IMG/VR virus record: IMGVR_UViG_3300044630_004371
Coordinates: 22,859 to 86,858 of that record
Direction: 5' to 3' (one strand)
Length of the DNA stretch: 64,000 nt
DNA from: a virus
Under the pieces are notes generated by a model. It had not been told where the DNA came from, did not search any database, and saw only the letters and a program-made list of their open reading frames with translations. Both the position numbers and the translations under genes were made by a program. Within the stretch, counting starts at the first letter, position 1, and every line of letters begins with the position of its first letter. Positions 5,569-62,925 of the stretch are shown in pieces.

Positions 5569-6325
5569 ATCTCATATTTTTACCTAATAACCCTTCTCTA
5601 TTCATTCTAATTTTTAAATCTCTTATCCATCTTTCTTTAAAATTACTTGGTAAACTATTATTTACAGTGTTTAAGGCTGGTGATATATTTAATATATCGT
5701 CAAATGTCAAGACATTCCAATTATTTTTATATTTATTGTATAATTGTTTAATATTATGAATTTGTCCTTGTATTTCCATTTTTGTTGCGTTAACTGGAAT
5801 TCCACCTATATCTCTTGTTTGTAATTCCACCTGTTTATTGATTCTTTTTTCTATGTGTCTATTATGAAACACATCATCAATCCAATGTGTTAATTCATGA
5901 TGAATAGAACCTTTAATTTTTTCTTCGGTAAATTCTATTTTAAATATCTTTTTTTGTTTGTAATCACTTAAATCATTAACAGCTTTAACAAAATCACCAC
6001 CATTCGATAACACATGAGCTAAAGCATTTTTATGTATACCAATACTTATTAATGATTTTTTTGGGTCGTAAAAATTACTACCCATATTAACCAAAATAGT
6101 ACATGGTTTTAATTGATTAGCAATGATACATTCCCCATCTTTAAAAATCCTCGTTGTTGTTTGATTTTCTTTAAACATATTTCTAGTTACAATATTGGTT
6201 CTTTCAATCTCATCAATATCATTTTTAAAATAAAGATTGTATAATAAATTAACATCTGATTCTATATTTGTTAATCTCTCAATTAACAAATTTTCTCTTA
6301 AAAGTTTTTTAATTAAATTTTTCAT
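5567..6325 (-). CDS. Tagged zinc metalloprotease-like protein
   Basis: 252 residues beginning MKNLIKKLLRENLL, the class I tag with an L-R-E site. Near residue 140 is a zincin motif, HHELTHWIDD (HExxH with His pair and Glu), within an otherwise helical region. The tag plus the prohead protease encoded at 12057 suggests packaging into the head and release by cleavage, so this may be a protease delivered with the DNA. The ATG lies 7 bases after a late-type ATATTTATA box. Fold assignment rests on the motif and context only. Confidence 0.7.
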   Translation of the reverse strand: MKNLIKKLLRENLLIERLTNIESDVNLLYNLYFKNDIDEIERTNIVTRNMFKENQTTTRIFKDGECIIANQLKPCTILVNMGSNFYDPKKSLISIGIHKNALAHVLSNGGDFVKAVNDLSDYKQKKIFKIEFTEEKIKGSIHHELTHWIDDVFHNRHIEKRINKQVELQTRDIGGIPVNATKMEIQGQIHNIKQLYNKYKNNWNVLTFDDILNISPALNTVNNSLPSNFKERWIRDLKIRMNREGLLGKNMR

Positions 6326-50739: not shown

Positions 50740-50800
50740 AATATAGTGTAGGTCGGAGTATACCTCCCGTTTCAACAACGTCCCGTTATCAATTGATAAC
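50740..50800 (-). ncRNA. Small structured RNA, family copy 1
   Basis: Begins about eight bases past an early-type promoter. Order on the minus strand: hairpin GTTATC-AATT-GATAAC (50785-50800), small hairpin CGTT-GTTGA-AACG, then GGGAGGTATACTCC (50755-50768), which can fold GGAG/CTCC. Four further copies exist (52770, 53375, 53944, 62864). No ORF. The 3' end is uncertain. Confidence 0.6.
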
Positions 50801-50804
50801 AAGA

Positions 50805-50836
50805 CAAAGATAAGGAAAAGTTTTCACTTTTCCAAA
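50805..50836 (-). promoter_or_regulatory. Early-type promoter with GAAA hairpin
   Basis: TTTG-N20-TATCTTTG ahead of RNA copy 1. The spacer is a perfect hairpin, arm GGAAAAGT, loop GAAA. Confidence 0.8.
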
Positions 50837-51040: not shown

Positions 51041-51072
51041 CAAAGATAAGGAAAAGTTTTCACTTTTCCAAA
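51041..51072 (-). promoter_or_regulatory. Early-type promoter with GAAA hairpin
   Basis: For the gene at 50848; perfect hairpin, arm GGAAAAGT. Confidence 0.8.
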
Positions 51073-52734: not shown

Positions 52735-52766
52735 TTTGGTAGTGTCATTTTTTATTCTTATCTTTG
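52735..52766 (+). promoter_or_regulatory. Early-type promoter of RNA copy 2
   Basis: TTTG-N20-TATCTTTG on the plus strand; spacer begins GTAGTGTCA and has no hairpin. Confidence 0.75.
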
Positions 52767-52769
52767 TAT

Positions 52770-52870
52770 TGTTCAGTTGATGAACGTGACGGCTTGTAAG
52801 AGTCGGGAGGTATACTCCAACCTACCCCATATTTTTTTTAGAATAAATACCCTTATTTTTAAGGGTATTT
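52770..52870 (+). ncRNA. Small structured RNA, family copy 2
   Basis: Hairpin GTTCA-GTTGA-TGAAC (52771-52785), hairpin CGGCT-TGTAAG-AGTCG, then GGGAGGTATACTCC (52805-52818). Ends in a strong terminator at 52846-52869. Own promoter, no ORF, about 100 nt. The best-bounded copy of the family. Confidence 0.7.
52846..52869. terminator. Bidirectional terminator
   Basis: AATACCCTTA-TTTT-TAAGGGTATT, between RNA copy 2 and the convergent gene at 52884. Confidence 0.85.
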
Positions 52871-52883
52871 TAACGTGTTTAAT

Positions 52884-53306
52884 TTAATAACCACCTCTAC
52901 ATATTGGTCCGAGTCCAAACTCAATAGATTTGGCATCTGTGAGTGTTTTACCACATACCAAACAATTGCCTGTATGCATAACTTCAACCAAGCTATCCAA
53001 AAGACCAAAATTTTTGGTTTCAGCTTTGCCCAAAACATAAGCAATAGCCATAGCAGAAGGTGAATCAACTACATTACCCTTGTGTCGAATACAGCCATTA
53101 AAATATGTACCTAAACGAACAAAATTTTGATATTCAACCTCAACCTTAACGTGTGTATACCAAACACCATTGTACTCGCTACGAGATATCTTATAGGTAT
53201 AGTCCTTGCCAGTCTTAATCGACTTGATAGTAAAATCAGAACCATTGTTATTAGCTTTACGATTGATTACCTCATAAAGTGCAGAAGAAGAAATAACGTG
53301 TGACAT
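52884..53306 (-). CDS. DUF6011-like zinc protein
   Basis: 140 residues. C-terminal CLVCGKTLTDAKSIEFGLGPICRGGY matches a small zinc-binding pattern (C..C...LTD..S...G.GP.C), annotated as DUF6011 as far as I recall. N-terminal ~90 residues form a beta-rich domain (TYKISRSEYNGVWYTHVKVE). Function unknown. Confidence 0.75.
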   Translation of the reverse strand: MSHVISSSALYEVINRKANNNGSDFTIKSIKTGKDYTYKISRSEYNGVWYTHVKVEVEYQNFVRLGTYFNGCIRHKGNVVDSPSAMAIAYVLGKAETKNFGLLDSLVEVMHTGNCLVCGKTLTDAKSIEFGLGPICRGGY

Positions 53307-53334
53307 ATTGAATTATTTTGATTGATTAATAAAA

Positions 53335-53366
53335 CAAAGATAAACAATTAATTTGAATTATCCAAA
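53335..53366 (-). promoter_or_regulatory. Early-type promoter
   Basis: For the gene at 52884; no stable hairpin. Confidence 0.75.
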
Positions 53367-53374
53367 TTTATTTT

Positions 53375-53453
53375 AAAAAAAAACATGCATGGTTTATAGG
53401 CCTGGTCGGAGTATACCTCCCGTTTCAACAACGTCCCGTTATCATTTGATAAC
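53375..53453 (-). ncRNA. Small structured RNA, family copy 3
   Basis: Nearly identical to copy 1 over its first 50 bases: GTTATC-AAAT-GATAAC (53438-53453), CGTT-GTTGA-AACG, GGGAGGTATACTCC (53408-53421). A T9 run follows near 53377. No ORF. Confidence 0.65.
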
Positions 53454-53458
53454 AAGAC

Positions 53459-53490
53459 AAAGATAAGGAATTGTTTTCACAATTCCAAAT
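53459..53490 (-). promoter_or_regulatory. Early-type promoter with GAAA hairpin
   Basis: For RNA copy 3; perfect hairpin, arm GGAATTGT. Confidence 0.8.
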
Positions 53491-53506
53491 CTTTTTTCAT
53501 TTATTT

Positions 53507-53803
53507 TTAACTTAATATTTCTTCGATACTTGGCTTGTCCAACTCGGCTTTATAGTCAGCTAAAATCTTTTCAAATTGTGGTAGGCAGTCAGAAGCAGAA
53601 CGACCTTTCAAACCATAATAGCGTTTGATATCGCTAAATTTAACCCCTCTACAAGTCATACCACTTGCCATAATTTTAAGGTTAAAACGATGTACGGCTA
53701 ACTGATAACCAAAGTAATCAATTTGTTTACCACCATTGCTTACTGAAGGTGTTTGTAGTTTGCCCTCACGAACTTGTTCTTGGGCTTGTTCAAATTGTGT
53801 CAT
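53507..53803 (-). CDS. Hypothetical protein (98 aa)
   Basis: MTQFEQAQEQVREGKLQTPSVS..., central MASGMTCRGVKFSDIKRYYGLKGRSASDCLPQFEKIL. Helical, basic middle. Unknown. Confidence 0.7.
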   Translation of the reverse strand: MTQFEQAQEQVREGKLQTPSVSNGGKQIDYFGYQLAVHRFNLKIMASGMTCRGVKFSDIKRYYGLKGRSASDCLPQFEKILADYKAELDKPSIEEILS

Positions 53804-53835
53804 AATTTATTTGTTTTAATGATTGATTAATAATA

Positions 53836-53867
53836 CAAAGATGAGAATAAAAATCGACAATTCCAAA
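53836..53867 (-). promoter_or_regulatory. Early-type promoter, variant CATCTTTG
   Basis: For the gene at 53507; the first base of the -7 box is changed. Confidence 0.65.
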
Positions 53868-53908
53868 TATTTTGATAAAAATATTTTTTAAAAATAATTG
53901 AAAATAAA

Positions 53909-53940
53909 TTTGGTGGTCTCATTTTTTATTCTTATCTTTG
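53909..53940 (+). promoter_or_regulatory. Early-type promoter of RNA copy 4
   Basis: TTTG-N20-TATCTTTG, plus strand, no spacer hairpin. Confidence 0.7.
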
Positions 53941-53943
53941 TAA

Positions 53944-54005
53944 TGTTCAAATAACATAGCGGTCATAACGACCCTCAAGTATACTCCAACCTGGTTTTTA
54001 TCCTA
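53944..54005 (+). ncRNA. Small structured RNA, family copy 4 (divergent)
   Basis: Keeps the promoter spacing, GGTC-ATAAC-GACC (53961-53973) and GTATACTCC (53979-53987). The first hairpin is poor (GTTCAAATAACAT) and the GGGAG half of the third element is lost. It may be decaying or specialised. Confidence 0.5.
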
Positions 54006-54027
54006 AACAAAACTTTTTTAAAATAAA

Positions 54028-54059
54028 TTTGGTAGTGTCATTTATTATTCTTATCTTTG
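54028..54059 (+). promoter_or_regulatory. Early-type promoter
   Basis: TTTG-N20-TATCTTTG for the plus-strand gene at 54079; same GTAGTGTCA spacer start as RNA copy 2. Confidence 0.75.
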
Positions 54060-54078
54060 CTTTATAAAATCAATCAAT

Positions 54079-54309
54079 ATGTACAACTTCACATTCAAAA
54101 CAGACGCAGAATTATTCCAAGCAGAATCCAAAGGCTTTATTGAAAGCTATGACATGGTTCGCATGGTGGTTAAAACAGGCAATTTAAACACTTGTGACTT
54201 CCCTTGCAAATCAGAAGAAGAATACAATAGATGTATTAAAATCTATAGTATTAAAATCGAACGTGTTTACCAAGATACACACAGCTTTGACATCATGGAT
54301 TATAATTAA
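54079..54309 (+). CDS. Hypothetical protein (76 aa)
   Basis: MYNFTFKTDAELFQAESKGFIES..., with CDFPCKSEEEYNRC in the middle. The only small gene here on the plus strand. Own promoter and terminator. Unknown. Confidence 0.7.
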   Translation: MYNFTFKTDAELFQAESKGFIESYDMVRMVVKTGNLNTCDFPCKSEEEYNRCIKIYSIKIERVYQDTHSFDIMDYN

Positions 54310-54315
54310 AAAACT

Positions 54316-54338
54316 TGGGGAAACATTTGGTTTCCCCA
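54316..54338 (+). terminator. Terminator overlapping the tRNA-like promoter
   Basis: TGGGGAAA / TTTCCCCA stem with a T-rich tail; the -33 TTTG of the next promoter lies in the loop. Confidence 0.8.
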
Positions 54339-54357
54339 TTTATTTTTTGTATCTTTG
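54326..54357 (+). promoter_or_regulatory. Early-type promoter of the tRNA-like RNA
   Basis: TTTG-N20-TATCTTTG, with the -7 box ending four bases before the acceptor stem. Confidence 0.75.
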
Positions 54358-54361
54358 TATT

Positions 54362-54432
54362 GTCAAGGTGGTGAAACGGTAAACACAAAGGGCGTTGCTC
54401 TAAATGTACAGGTTCGAATCCTGTCCTTGACA
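54362..54432 (+). tRNA. tRNA-like RNA without a normal anticodon arm
   Basis: 71 nt. Acceptor GTCAAGG/CCTTGAC, D-arm GTG-AAACGGTAAA-CAC (Leu-like), and T-arm ACAGG-TTCGAAT-CCTGT are all intact. The 21 bases between D- and T-arm (54387-54407) cannot form a 5-bp stem with a 7-base loop. The best fold is AGGGC-GTT-GCTCT with a three-base loop, and the usual U before the anticodon is missing. No CCA is encoded. Own promoter and terminator. It could be a decayed tRNA, but the other arms show no decay. Confidence 0.65.
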
Positions 54433-54433
54433 C

Positions 54434-54464
54434 AAAAAAGGCTAGAGTTAATCTAGCCTTTTTT
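54434..54464 (+). terminator. Terminator of the tRNA-like RNA
   Basis: AAAAAAGGCTAGA / TCTAGCCTTTTTT, two bases past the acceptor. Confidence 0.9.
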
Positions 54465-54555
54465 GGTATAGGTTATGTACGCAATTGTGTATATAGGGGT
54501 TATCCTTTAGCATACTCCTTTTCAAGTTCTTGCTCGAATAGGTTGGTATCCAAAT

Positions 54556-54768
54556 TTATTTGCAATTTTCTATGGCTTCCGAGTGTTTCATTTGTTCCTC
54601 AATAGATAACTCAGCAACACACACGATTTCTTCATTAGGTTTTAACTTAAAACCATTGTTGATAAGTTCTACAATGCTCGTGTAATGATACACTATATCA
54701 TAGGAATCAATACTTTTTTTTGTTGTTTTATTAAAGATAACGTAATCTTCTTTGGATATGTTTTGCAT
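54556..54768 (-). CDS. Hypothetical protein (70 aa)
   Basis: MQNISKEDYVIFNKTTKKSIDSYDIVYHYTSI..., acidic C-terminal half. Unknown. Confidence 0.65.
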   Translation of the reverse strand: MQNISKEDYVIFNKTTKKSIDSYDIVYHYTSIVELINNGFKLKPNEEIVCVAELSIEEQMKHSEAIENCK

Positions 54769-54788
54769 AATGTTATTTGATTAGGATA

Positions 54789-54820
54789 CAAAGATAAGGA
54801 GAATTTTTCAATTCTCCAAA
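54789..54820 (-). promoter_or_regulatory. Early-type promoter with GAAA hairpin
   Basis: For 54556; perfect hairpin, arm GGAGAATT. Confidence 0.8.
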
Positions 54821-54837
54821 TCTTTTTACAATTATTT

Positions 54838-54987
54838 TTACAATCTATAAAACTTTTTTGTTCCATCTTTGTGAACAACGTTGAAGCAACGTCCCGAACC
54901 ATCTTCCATATCAATGCTTTGTACTTTGACTAGGTACTTGATTTCGATAAGTTGCTTTGCTAATTCTTTGATTGATTTTTCTAACAT
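54838..54987 (-). CDS. Small hypothetical protein (49 aa)
   Basis: ATG 54987: MLEKSIKELAKQLIEIKYLV, then GSGRCFNVVHKDGTKKFYRL. Helix followed by a beta pair. Promoter of the standard type upstream supports it. Confidence 0.65.
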   Translation of the reverse strand: MLEKSIKELAKQLIEIKYLVKVQSIDMEDGSGRCFNVVHKDGTKKFYRL

Positions 54988-55009
54988 AGTATTTTAATTT
55001 ATTAGAATA

Positions 55010-55041
55010 CAAAGATAAGGAGAATTTTTCAATTCTCCAAA
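55010..55041 (-). promoter_or_regulatory. Early-type promoter with GAAA hairpin
   Basis: For 54838; perfect hairpin, arm GGAGAATT, same as 54789. Confidence 0.8.
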
Positions 55042-55052
55042 TCTTTTTTTAA

Positions 55053-55265
55053 TTAAATTTTATGCTCCCCAAAGGTATCAAAGTCTTGCACCTCATCATC
55101 AGCACTCATTCTAATTTCATCGTCAATACTATCAGCGTATTTTATCTCATTAAAGATAGCGTCTATCTTATCTTTATCTTCTTGTGTAGCAGAATTGCTA
55201 TCTTCAAAAATAATAAGCAATTCACAAGCATTGTTTAATAATCGTTCTAGGGTTTCTTTTTTCAT
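55053..55265 (-). CDS. Small acidic protein (70 aa)
   Basis: ATG 55265 (MKKETLERLLNNACELLIIFED). Strongly acidic (SIDDEIRMSADDEVQDFD). Such acidic early proteins sometimes mimic DNA, but nothing specific shows that here. Confidence 0.65.
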   Translation of the reverse strand: MKKETLERLLNNACELLIIFEDSNSATQEDKDKIDAIFNEIKYADSIDDEIRMSADDEVQDFDTFGEHKI

Positions 55266-55292
55266 AACTATAATGTTTAATTGATTAGGATA

Positions 55293-55324
55293 CAAAGATA
55301 AGAATAAGTTTTGACACTACCAAA
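55293..55324 (-). promoter_or_regulatory. Early-type promoter
   Basis: For 55053; spacer without hairpin, because a separate terminator lies upstream at 55332. Confidence 0.75.
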
Positions 55325-55331
55325 TAAAAAA

Positions 55332-55350
55332 GGAGGAATTTTCATCCTCC
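55332..55350 (-). terminator. Terminator
   Basis: GGAGGAT / ATTCCTCC stem then T6, behind the gene at 55367. Confidence 0.8.
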
Positions 55351-55366
55351 AATTTTAATCAATCAA

Positions 55367-55570
55367 TCAACAAGGCACTACTGAACAATAGTCAGCAATA
55401 TCTTCTAAAGGTATTCTTCCACGATTGGAGGAATAATACCCTTGTCTTTCATATCTTTTGGCAAAGTCCTCAAGTTCTTTTGGGACTTGCTTTTCGGTAT
55501 AGTTTGCTTTGTCCATTCGGATATCAAAGCCATCGGGAGATAATATTCTAAATTTTTGTACTTTTGACAT
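55367..55570 (-). CDS. Hypothetical protein (67 aa)
   Basis: ATG 55570 (MSKVQKFRILSPDGFDIRMD), with EDFAKRYERQGYYSSNRGRIPLEDIADYC. Small alpha/beta protein. Unknown. Confidence 0.7.
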   Translation of the reverse strand: MSKVQKFRILSPDGFDIRMDKANYTEKQVPKELEDFAKRYERQGYYSSNRGRIPLEDIADYCSVVPC

Positions 55571-55594
55571 AACTTTATTGATTTGATTAGGATA

Positions 55595-55626
55595 CAAAGA
55601 TAAGCAATTAATTTTAATTTTCCAAA
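55595..55626 (-). promoter_or_regulatory. Early-type promoter
   Basis: For 55367; no stable hairpin although a gene ends directly upstream. Confidence 0.75.
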
Positions 55627-56012
55627 TCTTTTTCAAACTTTTTCACAAAAAAATTGCTAATAGAATTTAGTTTGGTTCTCATTTTGATTGCATCTTCATC
55701 TTGCCCATTATCCTCTAAATCATCAGCAACATCATAAAGGCTTGTCAGTTCTTCAAAAACTTTTTTTGGTGTTTTATCCAAATCTTTCATGTAAATTATT
55801 TCACCATTCCATTGTGGGTGTGCATACATTTCAAGACACAAATAACAATCATAACCTTTTTCTTCAAGGTCATCAATATATTGGTCATATTGGTCAGCCA
55901 AGATTTGAATGTGAGTTCCCTTGTCAAATATTCTTACTGGTGACTTATCGGTTTTATCTTCGTGTGCAGTATCCCAAGTGCCATTGATAAAGATGTTGAT
56001 TAATGTATTCAT
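55614..56012 (-). CDS. Hypothetical protein (132 aa)
   Basis: MNTLINIFINGTWDTAHEDK..., IQILADQYDQYIDDLEEKGYDCYLCLEMYAHPQW, acidic helical C-terminus. Unknown. Its last bases overlap the promoter of the next gene. Confidence 0.7.
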   Translation of the reverse strand: MNTLINIFINGTWDTAHEDKTDKSPVRIFDKGTHIQILADQYDQYIDDLEEKGYDCYLCLEMYAHPQWNGEIIYMKDLDKTPKKVFEELTSLYDVADDLEDNGQDEDAIKMRTKLNSISNFFVKKFEKDLEN

Positions 56013-56037
56013 TGTTTTGATTGATTTGATTATGATA

Positions 56038-56069
56038 CAAAGATAAGCAATTAATTTGAATTATCCAAA
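56038..56069 (-). promoter_or_regulatory. Early-type promoter
   Basis: For 55614; no stable hairpin. Confidence 0.75.
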
Positions 56070-56080
56070 TCTTTTTGTAT

Positions 56081-56284
56081 TTATTTTCTAAAATTTCTTG
56101 TGATGTCCTTGGGGTTGGAAGTTTGCCCATCAGCATATTCTAATACACTATGTAGGGTTTCATCTTCACCCATTTCATTTTTAAGGAAGTCTATTACCTC
56201 ATCTTTGGTATCGAAGTCATAAGATTCTTCAATATAATCCCCATCATTAAAGTGGTTTCTTGTTTCTACTGAATAGGTTGGCAT
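56081..56284 (-). CDS. Small acidic protein (67 aa)
   Basis: ATG 56284 (MPTYSVETRNHFNDGDYIEES); acidic, with YDFDTKDEVIDFLKNEMGEDE. Unknown. Confidence 0.65.
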   Translation of the reverse strand: MPTYSVETRNHFNDGDYIEESYDFDTKDEVIDFLKNEMGEDETLHSVLEYADGQTSNPKDITRNFRK

Positions 56285-56308
56285 ATGATATTTGTTTTGA
56301 TTATGATA

Positions 56309-56340
56309 CAAAGATAAGGAATTATTTTCACAATTCCAAA
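56309..56340 (-). promoter_or_regulatory. Early-type promoter with GAAA hairpin
   Basis: For 56081; arms GGAATTGT and ATAATTCC pair with one G-U wobble. Confidence 0.8.
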
Positions 56341-56356
56341 TCTTTTGTAAAGTTTT

Positions 56357-56485
56357 TTAATAACCTCCAGTAAATGTTATAACGATATTTGCATCTTCTT
56401 CGATAGCATCAAAGGTTACACCTGATGCAATAAGGTCGGATAACATTTTTGTAAAGGTTTCTTTGGTTACGATTAGTACTCTCAT
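56357..56485 (-). CDS. Small hypothetical protein (42 aa)
   Basis: ATG 56485: MRVLIVTKETFTKMLSDLIA..., ending ANIVITFTGGY. Beta-alpha-beta-like miniprotein with a standard promoter. Confidence 0.6.
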   Translation of the reverse strand: MRVLIVTKETFTKMLSDLIASGVTFDAIEEDANIVITFTGGY

Positions 56486-56509
56486 TGTTTTATTGTTTTG
56501 ATTATAATA

Positions 56510-56541
56510 CAAAGATAAGGAATTATATTGACACTACCAAA
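56510..56541 (-). promoter_or_regulatory. Early-type promoter
   Basis: For 56357; no spacer hairpin, separate terminator upstream at 56549. Confidence 0.75.
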
Positions 56542-56548
56542 TAAAAAA

Positions 56549-56568
56549 GGAGGAATTTTCATCCCTCC
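56549..56568 (-). terminator. Terminator
   Basis: GGAGGgAT / ATTCCTCC stem then T6, behind the gene at 56590; nearly the same as 55332. Confidence 0.75.
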
Positions 56569-56589
56569 AATCTTAATCAATCATTATTT

Positions 56590-56847
56590 TTATACTGCGA
56601 TTACCCAATCGGTAACACCCCAATTTACCGAAGACGATACTGAGTATCCTTTCTTTCTCAATCGGTCAGCCACAATCGGCATATACATATACTCCTCAAC
56701 GCTCCAACCATAAGACGGTGCACACGATGAAGTTGTAAATGTGGTGGTTAGAGCATCTCCCGATAACCAACCTTCTATTCTTTCTTGAAGGCTTTGGATA
56801 AAATTTTCTTTTCTTTCTTGTGGTGTAAGTGTTGCTGTTTCTAACAT
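56590..56847 (-). CDS. Hypothetical protein (85 aa)
   Basis: MLETATLTPQERKENFIQSLQERIEGWL..., Ser/Thr-rich middle, then YMYMPIVADRLRKKGYSVSSS and WVIAV. Unknown. Confidence 0.7.
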   Translation of the reverse strand: MLETATLTPQERKENFIQSLQERIEGWLSGDALTTTFTTSSCAPSYGWSVEEYMYMPIVADRLRKKGYSVSSSVNWGVTDWVIAV

Positions 56848-56882
56848 AATTTTATTTATTTTGATTGTTGATTAATATGATA

Positions 56883-56914
56883 CAAAGATAAGGAAAAGTT
56901 TTCACATTTCCAAA
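56883..56914 (-). promoter_or_regulatory. Early-type promoter with GAAA hairpin
   Basis: For 56590; one mismatch in the stem. Confidence 0.75.
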
Positions 56915-56932
56915 TATTTTTGTAATTAATTT

Positions 56933-57478
56933 TTATTCATCTTCACCCCATTCATCTTCATCTTCATCTTCTTCTGCTTCGATAAAAACTACTTGGAATG
57001 CCACATACTCACCATTGCTATCTTTTTGCCCAAATACCCGATAAGAGCCATCTCCAAAACCCGATGAAGATACAACACCATTAGGTAATACACCCCATTG
57101 TTCATCAGCCAAGGTAATATCAGCACAAGCACGATACCACTCATCACCTTCTTCCGTATCGTAATCATCACCAAAATTGTGTTTTTTTAACTCTTTTGCT
57201 TTCTCATCATTACGATAAAACTCTTTGTCAAAGAAGCCAAATTGCCCACTATCAACCCCAGCACTAAAAGGCATTTCTTCAAACTTACCCGATAGAAAAT
57301 GATTTACGTGGTTAATACGTAATTCAGCTATTCTACGACCCCAAGATTCATCTTCTTCAACGTCAGCAACCCAAGTGCCTTTCTTTACGTTTTCTACGAT
57401 ACCTTGACACCAAGTCGGAATTGAGTAGCAAGGGTCGGAACAAACAAGTGTTCCCGATACAATTTCAAATTTTTCCAT
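56933..57478 (-). CDS. DUF4241-like protein
   Basis: 181 residues. FEIVSGTLVCSDPCYSIPTWCQG, then SAGVDSGQFGFFDKEFY and SSSGFGDGSYRVFG fit the DUF4241-type pattern (AGvDSGqaGifD, GDGsY). C-terminus is a run of Glu and Asp. Known only as a domain of unknown function. Confidence 0.7.
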   Translation of the reverse strand: MEKFEIVSGTLVCSDPCYSIPTWCQGIVENVKKGTWVADVEEDESWGRRIAELRINHVNHFLSGKFEEMPFSAGVDSGQFGFFDKEFYRNDEKAKELKKHNFGDDYDTEEGDEWYRACADITLADEQWGVLPNGVVSSSGFGDGSYRVFGQKDSNGEYVAFQVVFIEAEEDEDEDEWGEDE

Positions 57479-57501
57479 AATTTATTTAATTGATTAGAAT
57501 A

Positions 57502-57533
57502 CAAAGATAAGGAAAAGTTTTCACATTTCCAAA
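57502..57533 (-). promoter_or_regulatory. Early-type promoter with GAAA hairpin
   Basis: For 56933; one mismatch in the stem. Confidence 0.75.
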
Positions 57534-57549
57534 TATTTTTTCAACTTTT

Positions 57550-57765
57550 TTAAATTGCTCTTGATTGCTCAATAAGTTTCAAAATTTCTTCAACTGATTC
57601 AACAACCTTATAACCACCATTGTTATGTGAATCGTGCTTTAATGTGCTACCTATACCATCTTCATGTGGATACATACCTTGAATACCATTGACACTTAAA
57701 ACCATTTTGGTTCCAATCATTTGGTTGTAATTGTTGGTTACTGTAATAAATCTAATATTGCTCAT
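57550..57765 (-). CDS. Hypothetical protein (71 aa)
   Basis: MSNIRFITVTNNYNQMIGTKMVLSVNGIQGMYPHEDG..., C-terminal helix SVEEILKLIEQSRAI. Small mixed fold. Unknown. Confidence 0.7.
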   Translation of the reverse strand: MSNIRFITVTNNYNQMIGTKMVLSVNGIQGMYPHEDGIGSTLKHDSHNNGGYKVVESVEEILKLIEQSRAI

Positions 57766-57788
57766 ATCTTTTGTTTTTGATTAGAATA

Positions 57789-57820
57789 CAAAGATAAGGA
57801 AAAGTTTTCACTTTTCCAAA
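57789..57820 (-). promoter_or_regulatory. Early-type promoter with GAAA hairpin
   Basis: For 57550; perfect hairpin, arm GGAAAAGT. Confidence 0.8.
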
Positions 57821-57829
57821 TCTTTTTTG

Positions 57830-58099
57830 TTAAAATTTGCTACACTTGTCAATCCACTCTGCCACTTCATTTGCCGAACAATAGCCTTTAACTTCATCAG
57901 TACCAAAGTCAAACCATTTATCGTCTTTATCCCACATGGCAATTTCTGCCGTTTTACTCTCCAAGTCCTTTGTGTTGTTCCATCCGTCTTGTGATATACT
58001 TCTATTATCACAATAGTTTCCATAACCCCATTGTACAGATATTGTCCACCCGTTTTCAAAAGTAATTTGAAAGCCTTTTCTTAATGTTGATTTGAACAT
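57830..58099 (-). CDS. Hypothetical protein (89 aa)
   Basis: MFKSTLRKGFQITFENGWTISVQWGYGNYCDNRS..., KTAEIAMWDKDDKWFDFGTDEVKGYCSANEVAEWIDKC. Aromatic-rich; this pattern occurs in small phage proteins of Bacteroidota and Gram-positive hosts as far as I recall. No known role. Confidence 0.7.
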   Translation of the reverse strand: MFKSTLRKGFQITFENGWTISVQWGYGNYCDNRSISQDGWNNTKDLESKTAEIAMWDKDDKWFDFGTDEVKGYCSANEVAEWIDKCSKF

Positions 58100-58122
58100 A
58101 GTTGTTTGTTTTGATTAGAATA

Positions 58123-58154
58123 CAAAGATAAGGAAAAGTTTTCACTTTTCCAAA
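58123..58154 (-). promoter_or_regulatory. Early-type promoter with GAAA hairpin
   Basis: For 57830; perfect hairpin, arm GGAAAAGT. Confidence 0.8.
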
Positions 58155-58172
58155 TCTTTTTTCAATTATTTT

Positions 58173-58448
58173 TTAGTGTACAAGATAATTTTCACCTTTG
58201 ATTGTTAGCCTTGTAATAGTGTCAAGGTTAATCATTCGCCATTCTTTGACTTGCATATCATACACTGGCTTTAACCCCTTAAGACTTGGATTGTAAGCCA
58301 TACCACTACCTGTTACACCTTTGGTTACACCCAAACGGCAATTCATTACTCGTGTGGTGTTGTCTTTCTTTCTGAATTCAGCGGTGAAGATTTTACCTTT
58401 GGATTGGTTGATAAGCTCAACTGCGGCTACTTTGCTAATAAATTGCAT
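58173..58448 (-). CDS. SH3-barrel-type small protein
   Basis: 91 residues from ATG 58448 (MQFISKVAAVELINQSKGK). NCRLGVTKGVTGSGMAYNP and VYDMQVKEWRMINLDTITRL resemble a small SH3-like beta-barrel protein found in Bacteroidota and crAss-like phages. Role unknown. Confidence 0.7.
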   Translation of the reverse strand: MQFISKVAAVELINQSKGKIFTAEFRKKDNTTRVMNCRLGVTKGVTGSGMAYNPSLKGLKPVYDMQVKEWRMINLDTITRLTIKGENYLVH

Positions 58449-58473
58449 AATGTTATTTGATTTGATTATGATA

Positions 58474-58505
58474 CAAAGATAAGGAAAATAAATGACTTTT
58501 CCAAA
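58474..58505 (-). promoter_or_regulatory. Early-type promoter with weak hairpin
   Basis: For 58173; 6-bp stem, larger loop. Confidence 0.7.
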
Positions 58506-58516
58506 TCTTTTTTCAA

Positions 58517-58777
58517 TTATTTTTCTAATGGTGTCCACTCTATATCGTAAAGGTCTTCATCTAATTCGGGGCTATAAGCTGAATAGCCCTCAACAACTGA
58601 TGGGTAAACATATTCACCACTACGATTACAATATCCAATGGGTTTTGTTGTTGATAAAATTACACTTTCTTCACTTCCATTAACCATGTGGATAAATGGC
58701 TGATTTTGTTCGTTTGTGATTACCATATCTTTAGGGTAAGCACTTAGTAATTCGATTAGTTTTCCTACTGTTGTCAT
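58517..58777 (-). CDS. Hypothetical protein (86 aa)
   Basis: ATG 58777 (MTTVGKLIELLSAYPKDMVITNEQNQ). The start resembles small phage proteins of the 'VgkLIe.L...P.d..V' type. Acidic end (ELDEDLYDIEW). Unknown. Confidence 0.7.
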   Translation of the reverse strand: MTTVGKLIELLSAYPKDMVITNEQNQPFIHMVNGSEESVILSTTKPIGYCNRSGEYVYPSVVEGYSAYSPELDEDLYDIEWTPLEK

Positions 58778-58799
58778 GATATTTGATTTGATTAGAATA

Positions 58800-58831
58800 C
58801 AAAGATAAGGAAAAGTTTTCACAATTCCAAA
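58800..58831 (-). promoter_or_regulatory. Early-type promoter, mixed hairpin
   Basis: For 58517; arms of two types, as at 52277. Confidence 0.7.
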
Positions 58832-58842
58832 TCTTTTTTCAA

Positions 58843-59235
58843 TTATTTTTTGTCAAACATACTTGATTTTTCTTCTAATAAAAGTTCAGTATCTGCAATT
58901 GTTTTTGTCATTATAAGTTGGCGGTGCATTTGGTCACTCATACCAACCTTTTCAAGGATATACTGCATTCTCTCTCCATCAATATCAATAGCTTTCAGTT
59001 TCTTGATGATTTCATTCACTTCTTCATAGTTATAAAAACCCCAAGTCAAAGATTCATTGCTTGTTAAATCACAGGCTATTTCGATGTTGTTAAGGTTCGT
59101 AAAGGCTTCATCTGATGTTGATGAACGCATTTGGAATGCCTCGGTTAAACCTCGTTGTGCGATGAATTTTCTGATTACTTTTAAATCGTCAGCTACCATG
59201 GCTAAACGATGTTCTAATTGTTGCTCTTTTGTCAT
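58843..59235 (-). CDS. Hypothetical helical protein (130 aa)
   Basis: MTKEQQLEHRLAMVADDLKVIRKFIAQRG..., helical throughout. No promoter of its own; 11 bases behind the small membrane gene at 59247, so co-transcribed. Unknown. Confidence 0.7.
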   Translation of the reverse strand: MTKEQQLEHRLAMVADDLKVIRKFIAQRGLTEAFQMRSSTSDEAFTNLNNIEIACDLTSNESLTWGFYNYEEVNEIIKKLKAIDIDGERMQYILEKVGMSDQMHRQLIMTKTIADTELLLEEKSSMFDKK

Positions 59236-59246
59236 GATTGATTAGA

Positions 59247-59339
59247 TTAAAATGTTACTGAATAAATGATTGCAATAGTACCTAAGATTGCTAATACCTT
59301 CAAAATATTTGCCCATTGTTGTATTGTTACTTTTTTCAT
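59247..59339 (-). CDS. Small membrane protein (30 aa)
   Basis: ATG 59339: MKKVTIQQWANILKVLAILG and one membrane helix to the end (TIAIIYSVTF). First gene of a two-gene unit behind a standard promoter. Confidence 0.6.
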   Translation of the reverse strand: MKKVTIQQWANILKVLAILGTIAIIYSVTF

Positions 59340-59362
59340 GATTGTTTGATTTGATTATGGTA

Positions 59363-59394
59363 CAAAGATAAGAAAAAAAAATGACATTACCAAA
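59363..59394 (-). promoter_or_regulatory. Early-type promoter with terminator around its -33 element
   Basis: TTTG-N20-TATCTTTG. Upstream GGCATTA / TAATGTC stem encloses the TTTG and is followed by T9 in the spacer, so a terminator for 59422 is built into the promoter. Confidence 0.75.
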
Positions 59395-59421
59395 TAATAA
59401 TGCCACTTTTTTTCAATCAAT

Positions 59422-59523
59422 CTAAAAGTTGTGAATACCATGCACAATCACATTGTAAACTATAAGACTTACTAATGTCAATGCAATACAACACATTAAA
59501 ATAACTTCTGATATTACTTTCAT
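59422..59523 (-). CDS. Small membrane protein (33 aa)
   Basis: ATG 59523: MKVISEVILMCCIALTLVSL, one membrane helix with two adjacent Cys, then a short polar end (HGIHNF). Own promoter. Confidence 0.6.
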   Translation of the reverse strand: MKVISEVILMCCIALTLVSLIVYNVIVHGIHNF

Positions 59524-59547
59524 CGTTTTTATTATTTGATTAGAATA

Positions 59548-59579
59548 CAAAGATAAGGAAAGTATTTCTACTTTCCAAA
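59548..59579 (-). promoter_or_regulatory. Early-type promoter with GAAA hairpin
   Basis: For 59422; perfect hairpin, arm GGAAAGTA. Confidence 0.8.
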
Positions 59580-59592
59580 TCTTTTTTCAAAT

Positions 59593-59913
59593 TTATTTTA
59601 TTTTAATTCCGTTTTGTATTAGGACTGCATCAATTAAAGTTTTTTCTTCGTTTGCATCTACTACAAAGTTATCACAAGCCTTTTGACTGAACCTTGCCAT
59701 ATCTTTTAAATGCTTTTTAAAGCCACTAAAAGCTGCATAACTTTCAGAATTTTCTGTTCTACTAACTGGCGACACAGATAATTTGATACCTCTAGATTCA
59801 ACGCCACCTGTAAAATAATTTGCACCACCTTTGTCATAATATACTTCAACTTTTAAATGTGTTGCTCTTGGATTAGGTTCTAATTCTAGATACTTTTTAC
59901 TAATTTTTGCCAT
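59593..59913 (-). CDS. Hypothetical protein (106 aa)
   Basis: MAKISKKYLELEPNPRATHLKVEVYYDKGGANYFTGGVESRG..., then AFSGFKKHLKDMARFSQKACDNF. Beta-rich then helical. Similar small proteins occur in Bacteroidota phages; no known role. Confidence 0.7.
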   Translation of the reverse strand: MAKISKKYLELEPNPRATHLKVEVYYDKGGANYFTGGVESRGIKLSVSPVSRTENSESYAAFSGFKKHLKDMARFSQKACDNFVVDANEEKTLIDAVLIQNGIKIK

Positions 59914-59937
59914 GGTTGATTGTTTTGATTAATAATA

Positions 59938-59969
59938 CAAAGATAAGGAAAAGTTTTCACTTTTCCAAA
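59938..59969 (-). promoter_or_regulatory. Early-type promoter with GAAA hairpin
   Basis: For 59593; perfect hairpin, arm GGAAAAGT. Confidence 0.8.
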
Positions 59970-59986
59970 TCTTTTTTCGTTTATTT

Positions 59987-60616
59987 TTAATCTTCTTTGA
60001 TAACATCAAAACTCTTGGTTATACTTAACGTAAGTACGTTATCTACAAGTTTCAACTCTTCACCCTCTTCATTTGTAGTATAGGTATGCCACTCATTTAT
60101 TTCACCCTTAACATCATTCGGTGTATAATCTTGGGCAAATTCGGATATTTTTTCTTCCAACCCTTTCAAAGTTTCTTCTTGCTCGTTGGTAAGGATAAAG
60201 TCCTTTTTGTAATTGGTTTGTATATCATCTTCACCACCATTGATATTCAGTACATAGTCAGCCACAAATTTAGCTTCTTCATCAGTAAGTTCAATTTCAG
60301 CTTCGTTTACTGAACTTTCACTCCATTCACTTGATGAAGATTTTGAGTAGGTAAAATCGTTTTCATCTTCATCAAACTCAATAGTTACCACTCCAAACTC
60401 ACCTTGATAATGTCCGTCAGAATTTACATAAAACTCTACGTTGTTGTAGGTTTTGTCATCAAAGTATGTTTCAAGTTCACTATCTTGTACCAACTCACCC
60501 TCTTTGTCAAAGATTTCAATACTTGTGTCATTCATACTATCACCACCACAACTAAAATTAAAATTAACGTGGTCAATGTTTTTTTCTTTCCAAATTTTGA
60601 TAATATTTTCTGCCAT
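59987..60616 (-). CDS. Acidic hypothetical protein (209 aa)
   Basis: MAENIIKIWKEKNIDHVNFNFSCGGDSMNDTSIEIFD..., then VEFYVNSDGHYQGEFGVVTIEFDEDENDFTY and a helical C-terminal half. Strongly acidic overall. Unknown; the N-terminal beta-rich half may be one domain. Confidence 0.7.
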   Translation of the reverse strand: MAENIIKIWKEKNIDHVNFNFSCGGDSMNDTSIEIFDKEGELVQDSELETYFDDKTYNNVEFYVNSDGHYQGEFGVVTIEFDEDENDFTYSKSSSSEWSESSVNEAEIELTDEEAKFVADYVLNINGGEDDIQTNYKKDFILTNEQEETLKGLEEKISEFAQDYTPNDVKGEINEWHTYTTNEEGEELKLVDNVLTLSITKSFDVIKED

Positions 60617-60641
60617 TTGTTTATGATTTTTGATTATGATA

Positions 60642-60673
60642 CAAAGATAAGTAATTAAATTGAGATTACCAAA
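60642..60673 (-). promoter_or_regulatory. Early-type promoter
   Basis: For 59987; weak imperfect hairpin. Confidence 0.75.
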
Positions 60674-61069
60674 TTATTGGCTAATTTTTTCTAAAAATTC
60701 TTTTGCAGTTTGTTCTGCTTCGGGATTGTCAATGTTTTTTACTGCATTGTTAAACCAGGGTTGAACTACAACGTGCTTCAAATAATCTTGTGGTGTTGGT
60801 ACAAATTTCATTCTAAAATCTTCTGCTATATGTAGCATAGCAATATCAACACTATCAACACTTCTGCCATCGGAATTGATTATATTATACCCAAAAATCT
60901 TTGGAATGATAGTGTATGCAAACCAAGTATTATGTGTTAATAACCTTGCTGAATTGTTGTTCATTGTAGCTTTTGGACTATCAATAAGTTCGTGGATAGC
61001 TAAATAATCTTCTACTTTTCCACCCCAACGCTTAACGCTGGATTTTGAATGTATCATTGGATTTGCCAT
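60674..61069 (-). CDS. DUF6915-like protein
   Basis: 131 residues: MANPMIHSKSSVKRWGGKVEDYLAIHELIDSPKA, ARLLTHNTWFAYTIIPKIFG, NSDGRSVDSVDIAMLHIAEDF and VPTPQDYLKHV match a phage and bacterial family I recall as DUF6915. Conserved His residues might bind metal. Role unknown. Confidence 0.75.
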   Translation of the reverse strand: MANPMIHSKSSVKRWGGKVEDYLAIHELIDSPKATMNNNSARLLTHNTWFAYTIIPKIFGYNIINSDGRSVDSVDIAMLHIAEDFRMKFVPTPQDYLKHVVVQPWFNNAVKNIDNPEAEQTAKEFLEKISQ

Positions 61070-61092
61070 AATTGATTGATTTGATTATGATA

Positions 61093-61124
61093 CAAAGATA
61101 AGGAAAAGTTTTCACTTTTCCAAA
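61093..61124 (-). promoter_or_regulatory. Early-type promoter with GAAA hairpin
   Basis: For 60674; perfect hairpin, arm GGAAAAGT. Confidence 0.8.
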
Positions 61125-61139
61125 TCTTTTTTCATTTTT

Positions 61140-61406
61140 TTAGTCCCAAATTTGACTAATTTTTTGGTCAAATGGATTGTACTCAACTTGTTTACCCATT
61201 ACCCAATTACCCTTTTCAACTGCAAGGGTTTGATGTTCGTTACTCCAAGAACCATTGGGCATTTCGTGTTTCAATAAGCTATCCTTTTTTACAACAAGGT
61301 CAGCAAAGTCGGTAGTTTCTTTTTCAATGGCAAATTCGCCATACAAGGTATGTTGGTTTGCACCCTCACCTTTCAATAGTGTTTGTTTTTTTACGTTACG
61401 TTTCAT
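61140..61406 (-). CDS. Hypothetical protein (88 aa)
   Basis: MKRNVKKQTLLKGEGANQHTLYGEFAIEKET..., then HQTLAVEKGNWVMGKQVEYNPFDQK. Mostly beta; phage-type small protein. Unknown. Confidence 0.7.
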   Translation of the reverse strand: MKRNVKKQTLLKGEGANQHTLYGEFAIEKETTDFADLVVKKDSLLKHEMPNGSWSNEHQTLAVEKGNWVMGKQVEYNPFDQKISQIWD

Positions 61407-61431
61407 TTGATATGATTTTTTAATTATGATA

Positions 61432-61463
61432 CAAAGATAAGCAATTTATTTGAAAAATCCAAA
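61432..61463 (-). promoter_or_regulatory. Early-type promoter
   Basis: For 61140; no GAAA hairpin, separate terminator upstream. Confidence 0.75.
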
Positions 61464-61472
61464 TTTTTTATG

Positions 61473-61503
61473 AAAAAAGGTGGAAAATAAATTTCCACCC
61501 TTT
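61473..61503 (-). terminator. Terminator
   Basis: GGGTGGAAA / TTTCCACC stem then T6, behind 61514. Confidence 0.85.
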
Positions 61504-61513
61504 TATCAATCAA

Positions 61514-62188
61514 TCAACTTTCAGCAACCAAAAGTTCCTTATATTCTTTTTCAGTCAAGTGTCTTGCACTATCCAAAGGTTTGTATTTGCCATTGGGTTT
61601 GATTAATACGCAATCACCTTGTCGGATAATCTTTTCAATGCTACCTTGTGGTACGTTGGTTTGGATAGTCCAAGCAATACATTGGATAGCATTGATTTTT
61701 TTAATATCATACTCCCAACGATTTTCATTATTGGTATTATAAACACTTTGTGGCTCAACCCAAATAAAATAGTTTCTATCAGTTGATGTATCTTTCAGTT
61801 TCACAAAGTAAGCATTTTCCATTTTATTCCAACCTTGCAACCCCTCGTTAAAATACTCACCACTTACCTCGTAAAGTTCATAGGTATCATTGAATTTTGT
61901 TGTAACAAGTTTTCCGTTTTCATCTACCCAATTAGTAGATTTTTTTAGTGTTTTTTTGCTCAATAATTTTGGTTGAACTTCACTTGCAAGTCGTTCCAAC
62001 CCCAAGCATAATACACCTACTCTACGTTGTTCCAAATTAGGTAGTTTGGCAATATCTTTGAATGTCAAAGGAACAATATCGTTCCAAATATCTTCAAGTT
62101 CAGCCATTGGGCAATCTTTGTGTTTCAACTTCAACAAACGACAACCCATATCGTAAGGAAACTTTTGATTGTTGATAATGATTTGCAT
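61514..62188 (-). CDS. Hypothetical protein (224 aa)
   Basis: MQIIINNQKFPYDMGCRLLKLKHKDCPMAELEDIW, then PLTFKDIAKLPNLEQRRVGVLCLGLERLASEVQP, and NRNYFIWVEPQSVYN. Alpha/beta; GDCVLIKPNGKYKPL near the end resembles a beta barrel. Unknown. Confidence 0.75.
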   Translation of the reverse strand: MQIIINNQKFPYDMGCRLLKLKHKDCPMAELEDIWNDIVPLTFKDIAKLPNLEQRRVGVLCLGLERLASEVQPKLLSKKTLKKSTNWVDENGKLVTTKFNDTYELYEVSGEYFNEGLQGWNKMENAYFVKLKDTSTDRNYFIWVEPQSVYNTNNENRWEYDIKKINAIQCIAWTIQTNVPQGSIEKIIRQGDCVLIKPNGKYKPLDSARHLTEKEYKELLVAES

Positions 62189-62211
62189 ATTTTTATTATT
62201 TGATTAGAATA

Positions 62212-62243
62212 CAAAGATAAGGAAAAGATTTGGTATTTCCAAA
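62212..62243 (-). promoter_or_regulatory. Early-type promoter with weak hairpin
   Basis: For 61514; 5-bp stem only. Confidence 0.7.
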
Positions 62244-62246
62244 TTT

Positions 62247-62489
62247 TTATTTAGAATTTTTTAAAACTTCATCAATAGCTGTCTTTAAATCTTTTAGCTG
62301 TTCTCTCGTCATTAGTGGTATCATCATTGAACTAAACCCTAAATCACGTCTTTCAGTACGACTATCACTATCGGGATAAAGGTTATTATCAGTTATACTC
62401 ACATAACCTATATTACCTGTTAAACCTACACTTATTGTGTGTCCATTGGTACTGATTTGTCTTTGTGCTAGTTTATGTTGGTTAGCCAT
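62247..62489 (-). CDS. Hypothetical protein (80 aa)
   Basis: MANQHKLAQRQISTNGHTISVGLTGNIGYVSITDNN..., helix MTREQLKDLKTAIDEVLKN. Unknown. Confidence 0.7.
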   Translation of the reverse strand: MANQHKLAQRQISTNGHTISVGLTGNIGYVSITDNNLYPDSDSRTERRDLGFSSMMIPLMTREQLKDLKTAIDEVLKNSK

Positions 62490-62512
62490 TGTTATTTGAT
62501 TTGATTAGAATA

Positions 62513-62544
62513 CAAAGGTAAGGAAAGTATTTCTACTTTCCAAA
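62513..62544 (-). promoter_or_regulatory. Early-type promoter with GAAA hairpin
   Basis: For 62247; TACCTTTG box; perfect hairpin, arm GGAAAGTA as at 59548. Confidence 0.8.
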
Positions 62545-62555
62545 TCTTTTTGCAA

Positions 62556-62732
62556 TTATTTTTTCATAATGACTTTGTTTTCTATCATACCTTGTCCTAT
62601 CACATCAAAACGTTCACCCAAAGATAAGTTTTCATACCCCTCAAATGGATAAACAACTCTAAAGTTGCAACGAGGATTGGTTTCACAAGTAATTTCTTTT
62701 TTGCTAAAAACACTTAATAGTAATGCTAACAT
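62556..62732 (-). CDS. Small hypothetical protein (58 aa)
   Basis: ATG 62732: MLALLLSVFSKKEITCETNP, then CNFRVVYPFEGYENLSLGER and VIGQGMIENKVI. Looks like a small beta barrel behind a hydrophobic start. Standard promoter upstream. Confidence 0.65.
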   Translation of the reverse strand: MLALLLSVFSKKEITCETNPRCNFRVVYPFEGYENLSLGERFDVIGQGMIENKVIMKK

Positions 62733-62755
62733 AATTATTTTATTTGATTAGAATA

Positions 62756-62787
62756 CAAAGATAAGGAATTAATTTGACACTACCAAA
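62756..62787 (-). promoter_or_regulatory. Early-type promoter
   Basis: For 62556; no hairpin. Upstream is a divergent RNA gene, so no message needs ending here. Confidence 0.75.
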
Positions 62788-62828
62788 TTTATTTTTGATT
62801 ATTTTTAAAAAATATTTTTGTATAAAAG

Positions 62829-62860
62829 TTTGGAAATGTCAATTCTTTTTTCTATCTTTG
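62829..62860 (+). promoter_or_regulatory. Early-type promoter of RNA copy 5
   Basis: TTTG-N20-TATCTTTG, plus strand, no hairpin. Confidence 0.75.
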
Positions 62861-62863
62861 TAT

Positions 62864-62925
62864 TGTTCAATTGATGAACGAGACGATGATGAATCGGGAG
62901 GTATACTCCACTATGCCCCTACTTT
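62864..62925 (+). ncRNA. Small structured RNA, family copy 5
   Basis: GTTCA-ATTGA-TGAAC (62865-62879), CGAT-GATGA-ATCG (62884-62896), GGGAGGTATACTCC (62896-62909). The stem of the second hairpin differs from the other copies but still pairs. No ORF. Confidence 0.65.

Follow-up and report, generated by a model that had tools for sequence, protein, structure and literature searches.

We analyzed a 64,000-nucleotide stretch of viral DNA, referred to below as the window (bases 22859-86858 of the 86.9 kb virus record IMGVR_UViG_3300044630_004371), that carries five copies of a small structured element belonging, very probably, to a family of trans-acting RNA genes. Because the window encodes a terminase, a portal and a major head protein, its virus is a tailed phage. 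The region at ~50-63.6 kb holds some 40 promoters of the form TTTG-N17..23-TAnnTTTG, each followed by a short A-rich leader and nearly every one heading a single small gene. Five promoters of this region have no gene and drive the small RNA element instead. The core of the element is absent from the mRNA promoters of this phage, and the genes adjoining the RNA copies carry promoters of their own.

The core sequence GGGAGGTATACTCC occurs exactly in four places, and a fifth, divergent copy has GTATACTCC (Table 1). The combined pattern TATCTTTG-N30..45-GTATACTCC was found five times in the window and not once in 100 dinucleotide shuffles, which agrees with an earlier, sequence-only reading in which five copies each followed a Bacteroidota-type promoter at a fixed distance. 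The interval given in that reading runs from the promoter of copy 2 to the end of copy 5 and does not include copy 1. It had also let copy 2 end in a terminator, with which the long A/T-flanked hairpin 3′ of this copy is consistent. The 5′ hairpin and second hairpin that it assigned to every copy are present in copies 1, 2, 3 and 5 but are short and weak in copy 4, where a 4-base-pair TGTT/AACA stem is followed by GGTC/GACC and the fold is no better than that of its own shuffles (z −0.04). In the other four copies, the z score of the minimum free energy against shuffles was modest (−1.1 to −2.0), and the case for an RNA is therefore made by covariation and not by folding energy.

Table 1. Promoters, small RNA genes and their parts in the window (position 1 is the first base of the window; CM, covariance model)
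Feature	Position	Strand	Evidence
Promoter of copy 1 (TTTG ... TATCTTTG)	50805..50836	-	Sequence, motif count versus shuffles
Copy 1 small RNA, conserved part	50740..50801	-	CM R1, E=1.9e-25 (copy in model)
Copy 1 parts	Hairpin 1 50785-50800; hairpin 2 50768-50780; GGGAGGTATACTCC 50755-50768; invariant GTATACTCC 50755-50763	-	
Promoter of copy 2	52735..52766	+	Sequence, motif count versus shuffles
Copy 2 small RNA	52771..52833	+	CM R1, E=7.4e-19 (copy in model)
Copy 2 parts	Hairpin 1 52771-52785; hairpin 2 52790-52805; GGGAGGTATACTCC 52805-52818; GTATACTCC 52810-52818	+	
A/T-flanked long hairpin AAATACCCTTA/TAAGGGTATTT 3′ of copy 2, probable (bidirectional) terminator	52845..52870	+	Sequence
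Promoter of copy 3	53458..53489	-	Sequence, motif count versus shuffles
Copy 3 small RNA	53393..53454	-	CM R1, E=1.5e-23 (copy in model)
Copy 3 parts	Hairpin 1 53438-53453; hairpin 2 53421-53433; GGGAGGTATACTCC 53408-53421; GTATACTCC 53408-53416	-	
Promoter of copy 4	53909..53940	+	Sequence, motif count versus shuffles
Copy 4 small RNA, divergent	53944..54000	+	Sequence; CM R1 misses copy 4 at E<10
Copy 4 parts	Short hairpin 1 53944-53956; hairpin 2 GGTC/GACC 53961-53973; GTATACTCC 53979-53987; without GGAG half	+	
Promoter of copy 5	62829..62860	+	Sequence, motif count versus shuffles
Copy 5 small RNA	62865..62925	+	CM R1, E=6e-21 (copy in model)
Copy 5 parts	Hairpin 1 62865-62879; hairpin 2 62884-62896; GGGAGGTATACTCC 62896-62909; GTATACTCC 62901-62909	+	

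Structure and distribution of the RNA

Covariation was evaluated over 64 distinct aligned members. In hairpin 1, 96% of the cells were paired, with GC, AU, CG and UA pair types, and hairpin 2 showed double-sided changes at all four of its pairs, a mismatch being tolerated at the third. The whole-structure covariation score was 0.256, compared to 0.110 ± 0.008 for shuffled alignments and at most 0.097 when the partners were slid. As this alignment had been fitted to the model, both hairpins were retested in sequences anchored only at the core, and swapping or shuffling served as the control. Hairpin 2 then gave 4.70 pairs versus at most 3.96 with swapped partners, and hairpin 1 gave 4.0 versus at most 3.42 on shuffling. 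The two 5′ hairpins predicted from these changes are the structure of a real RNA family, and the earlier argument that stem changes with kept pairing point to an RNA holds for both of them.

The same alignment did not bear out the proposed folding of the core itself. A third hairpin pairing GGAG with CTCC was rejected, as it showed no compensatory (double) change, 33 broken cells and an invariant 3′ side; a helix in which the 3′ tail would pair with the 5′ linker and close the structure was also rejected (8.0 observed, 8.6 on swapping). The element that varies never or hardly is GUAKACUCC (GTAKACTCC in DNA), preceded by a purine-rich linker that differs between members (GGAG, GAGA, GGAA, AAGA, TAGA and GACA, among others) and followed by a degenerate RMCMYRY; in folds, the core is partly unpaired. 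Since the invariant element is GUAKACUCC and not GGGAGG, copy 4 is a true family member, though weakly folded: it does lack the GGAG half, as had been seen, but it keeps the invariant element and so is not a truncated outlier. Two interactions considered for the linker and core were set aside. For an anti-Shine-Dalgarno decoy, GGAGG is not conserved in the linker, and for rRNA pairing, the small- and large-subunit loci checked gave chance-level matches only, with one 14-nucleotide (nt) match on the antisense strand.

Just 13 of 55 members have an ATG frame running through the core, and these fall in three different frames. There is thus no conserved reading frame, and the RNA is non-coding and not a small protein gene; the original statement that no copy has an open reading frame is right for the family, but chance ATG frames do cross the core in copies 2 and 5. 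Among 43 intergenic members, the next downstream gene is on the opposite strand in 16, and given this gene order the copies are predicted stand-alone transcription units. A T5 run lies within 45 nt 3′ of the core in 32 of 70 members. One lineage (L423:4730-4805 and 5785-5859; L010, L019, L038) has an extra strong terminator hairpin, AGTTGTTAACA/TGTTAATAACT, and a T-run after the core.

In total, we collected ~68 distinct members from more than 45 uncultured-virus records and from Tenacibaculum phage Larrie (70 showed one of the three main forms of the core, and two of these, with CCTTTTT 3′ of it, are likely chance terminators). Searching IMG/VR with the 14-mer core returned mostly chance matches together with a clear set sharing the promoter-hairpin-hairpin-core layout. 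A covariance model built from 11 members found copies in 30 of 30 viral records, one to nine in each, all of these records having been chosen for a core seen in them and some of the copies belonging to the training set; its E-values are rough. By motif count, the 39.9 kb record G027 holds at least 13 promoter-linked copies. Over ~280 kb of RNA regions, all GT[AG][TG]ACTCC sites but one were downstream of such a promoter (including two flagged "-" by the script, whose promoter lies just outside the tested interval), and in 16 further records the count of GTRKACTCCRNC sites was 66, the reversed pattern used as control giving 3. The RNA is present in groups of records with few proteins in common (G000, G009, G017 and G024 versus G003 and G019 versus G022), and a 635 kb phage record shows this layout with UUAGACUCC. 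The records are for the most part metagenomic and possibly incomplete, and 9-mer searches favor the known core.

When named phages (50,697 records) were searched by blastn, neither two GTATA-type members nor one generalized consensus gave a convincing match. With a GTAGA-type member as the query, matches were obtained to the 635 kb phage and to Larrie, a cultured, exclusively lytic siphovirus (PMC10013915). The Larrie copies (ON950054.1) at 16966 (+), 17026 (-), 18815 (+) and 19447 (+) are all in unannotated gaps, with TANNTTTG upstream of their cores. Two of them, on opposite strands, converge (L529:16880-17100), such that the cores are ~40 nt apart and the 3′ parts overlap in antisense. The core pattern was absent from Cellulophaga phage phiST, of the same genus as Larrie, and a search of plasmid records for the RNA gave nothing. 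A Flavobacteriales metagenome-assembled genome was the center of a sample of 396 + 45 genomes, which were assigned to its phylum on that ground, and none of them contained GGRRRGTAKACTCCRMCMYRY; in a pattern scan of 85k cellular genomes, the matches listed were swamped by GC-rich chance ones. At the gathering score of Rfam 15 (4227 models), the window and nine related loci matched only tRNAs, and E-value scans of the RNA copies gave no plausible match, in keeping with the first impression that no described family has such a core. On these comparisons, the predicted RNA is a previously uncatalogued family, spread over several phage lineages.

Some known systems share features with this RNA. The put RNAs of phage HK022 are short two-hairpin RNAs directly after a phage promoter, acting in cis on the downstream operon. 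The RNA described here likewise has two hairpins right after the promoter, but many of its copies lack a same-strand downstream gene. CRISPR-repeat mimics (Racr, or solitary repeat units) are phage-encoded small RNAs of similarly modest size. Unlike in Racr, no CRISPR repeat-like sequence was seen in the phage RNA, and the absence of the core from the ~440 Flavobacteriales-centered genomes, an indirect test, speaks against the mimic guessed at from the window. FopS RNAs are multi-copy paralogous small RNAs of Bacteroidaceae with a shared seed and sigma-ABfr promoters, and the sequence of a FopS member has been reported from a Caudovirales phage (PMC11697453). Our RNA resembles FopS (Bacteroides, with RbpB) in being multi-copy, paralogous and preceded by canonical Bacteroidota promoters. 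FopS, however, is cellular and has a single-stranded 5′ seed and one terminator hairpin, whereas the phage RNA has two covarying 5′ hairpins before the core, was found only in phages and has no Rfam match. The two are set apart by description and not by seed sequence; the Rfam scans gave no FopS match, the presence of a FopS model in the scanned copy being unconfirmed.

We also note two features of the promoters in the window. In many of them, the spacer separating the −33 box from the −7 box is palindromic (50814-50833, 51050-51069 and 53467-53486; e.g., GGAAAAGTGAAAACTTTTCC) and scores as a terminator on both strands; at such spacers, the terminator of the upstream gene may overlap the promoter of the next. 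A tRNA at 54362-54432, found by Rfam and missed by ARAGORN, has its own promoter ending at 54357, a layout as in the small RNA genes.

DUF932 genes beside the RNA copies

A recurrent protein of ~300 amino acids encoded beside RNA copies was identified as DUF932 by Pfam (PF06067; 70.0, 27.2, 67.9, 67.1, 57.4 and 52.3 bits versus a cut-off of 23; E 3e-19), yet it scores below the cut-off of TIGR03299 (LGT_TIGR03299; 97.7 versus 110.7 bits). In records found through the RNA, nine of nine DUF932 genes (eight records) were immediate neighbors of a copy, for which the region-matched chance was 0.12-0.53 per gene; the product of 8.7e-7 is no strict probability, since the phages are partly related and the adjacency statistics ignore kinship. 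Those of G009 and G024 are also among the RNA-linked genes. When DUF932 was instead searched for by protein only, a copy lay within 600 nt of the gene in 21 of 27 loci, and among the records (by contig name) that had not come up in any previous RNA search, in 13 of 19. In these protein-found loci, 31 copies lay no more than 600 nt from the gene and 8 lay beyond, a ~14-fold difference in density by hand count.

In the close DUF932 subfamily, a copy convergent with the gene usually follows its stop codon at a distance of 80-540 nt (130-170 in most cases), and a second copy is often present upstream. A subfamily with ~22% identity (L488-L491) has a same-strand copy placed ~170-200 nt ahead of the gene. 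There is no DUF932 gene in the window. A record of the same species, G012, contains four exact window RNA copies with the same spacing and a DUF932 gene flanked by two copies. The AlphaFold model of this protein was confident (predicted local distance difference test score 90.5), and its fold neighbors were other DUF932-type viral models only. A RAD52-like fold (E only ~0.1, TM score ~0.1) was not used. A defense library gave no match for DUF932 or the neighbors tested, and the titles and abstracts of literature mentioning DUF932 report no RNA partner.

Other genes adjoin the RNA elsewhere. In a lineage in which DUF932 was not detected (L423, L019, L038, L080, L231), a protein of ~366-376 amino acids is encoded downstream of a copy and is RadA/Sms-like in L423. 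An 85-amino-acid WYL_2 (Sm-like) gene directly adjoins the copy in L423, L019 has an 85-amino-acid gene in the same place, and the neighbor in G017 is a UvrD-type helicase.

Proposed role of the RNA and its alternatives

We propose that each copy would be a stand-alone gene, transcribed during infection by the RNA polymerase of the host from the canonical Bacteroidota promoter in front of it, with a conserved part of about 60-75 nt and a tail that is U-rich or forms a terminator. The RNA would comprise, in order, the 5′-terminal hairpin, a hairpin 2 variable in sequence and conserved in pairing, the purine-rich linker, GUAKACUCC and RMCMYRY. The two hairpins may lend the RNA stability and hold the invariant stretch in place; this stretch would be accessible and recognized by a conserved partner. 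A protein is likelier in this role than a changing set of mRNAs because the stretch is kept across distant phages while the rest drifts, and the phage DUF932 protein is the best candidate because most phages with a DUF932 gene have it beside RNA copies. The RNA would act in trans; its many copies could either provide the ligand of an RNA-protein complex in stoichiometric amounts or serve to regulate DUF932. We offer this reading as a whole, a trans-acting phage small RNA presenting GUAKACUCC to a conserved partner, possibly DUF932, tentatively and at somewhat less than even chances. As to its parts, we lean slightly toward a functional DUF932 linkage, whereas it is doubtful that DUF932 would bind the RNA, and equally so that it is an RNA-binding protein with the multi-copy RNA as its cognate ligand, which would make an undescribed phage ribonucleoprotein system of lytic infection in Bacteroidota.

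Several observations count against a DUF932-RNA partnership or the recognition site it assumes. The 9-mer GUAKACUCC belonged to the search pattern, and its invariance is partly by construction. No copy lies within 600 nt of DUF932 in L482, L484, L485, L486, L487 and L492, the L486 record having RNA copies only several kb away, and the DUF932 gene of crAss002 (gp43) is in an operon beside a Gam-like gene with no RNA nearby. No DUF932 was detected in the RNA-bearing G017, G003 and G019, and none is named in the part of the annotation of RNA-bearing Larrie that was viewed. The DUF932 model had no significant match among solved structures, nucleic-acid-binding folds included. The linkage could also be inherited synteny, a real RNA and DUF932 merely sharing a location in the small-gene region; copies do cluster among small promoter-bearing genes in phages that are partly related. 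The nine of nine neighbors exceed the region-matched chance, and the link holds for divergent DUF932 subfamilies, in differing relative orientation and on either side of the gene. We regard synteny as plausible though short of likely, and since it concerns the linkage only, its probability is not to be added to those of the alternatives below.

Other explanations dispense with a phage protein partner, the foremost being a base-pairing family of the FopS kind and a sponge for a host factor. If GUAKACUCC were a seed pairing with phage or host mRNAs, the copies would be redundant siblings of a FopS-like paralogous regulator, for which FopS, including its sequence in a Caudovirales phage (PMC11697453), is a precedent and which suits the partly unpaired core. 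Seeds for mRNAs usually drift, however, while this core is constant across phages with widely differing genes; no one nucleotide pairs with both the U and the G that alternate at core position 4, DUF932 mRNA has no conserved complement of the core except the neighboring convergent small RNA itself, and no consistent rRNA complement was found. Such base pairing is thus unlikely. Improbable to a greater degree is a decoy, expressed strongly from many copies, that titrates away a host RNA-binding factor, e.g., an RNA-recognition-motif protein or a defense nuclease. The high copy number (13 in 40 kb), the near-consensus promoters and the presence in phages, with absence from the sampled cellular genomes, would fit a sponge, but a sequence mimic of a host RNA should have its core in host genomes (0 of ~440 sampled), and the GGAGG half, a possible Shine-Dalgarno mimic, is not conserved.

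We consider it very improbable that the near-palindrome GGAGnTATACTCC past the promoter is a DNA element, either an operator or a recombination site, with incidental RNA structure: the core is close to a dyad and always promoter-linked, but many members have lost the GGAG half while hairpins 1 and 2 covary, and the mRNA promoters of the same phage lack the near-palindrome. Position directly after the promoter and two adjacent hairpins would also suit a cis-acting leader or antiterminator like the put RNAs, to which we give hardly any credence, as gene order refutes it for the 16 of 43 members followed by an opposite-strand gene and promoters of their own precede the neighboring genes in the window.

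Structured small RNAs are little known in lytic phages outside well-studied hosts, and the one described here is conserved in phages of several lineages, represented by anything from fragments of 40 kb to a genome of 635 kb, and reaches 13 copies. Since Larrie carries the RNA and is in culture together with its host, Tenacibaculum larymnensis LAR25, direct tests are possible. The RNA points to a candidate partner for DUF932, a common phage and plasmid family of unknown function, and a DUF932-RNA complex, if true, would be the first function for this widespread protein family.

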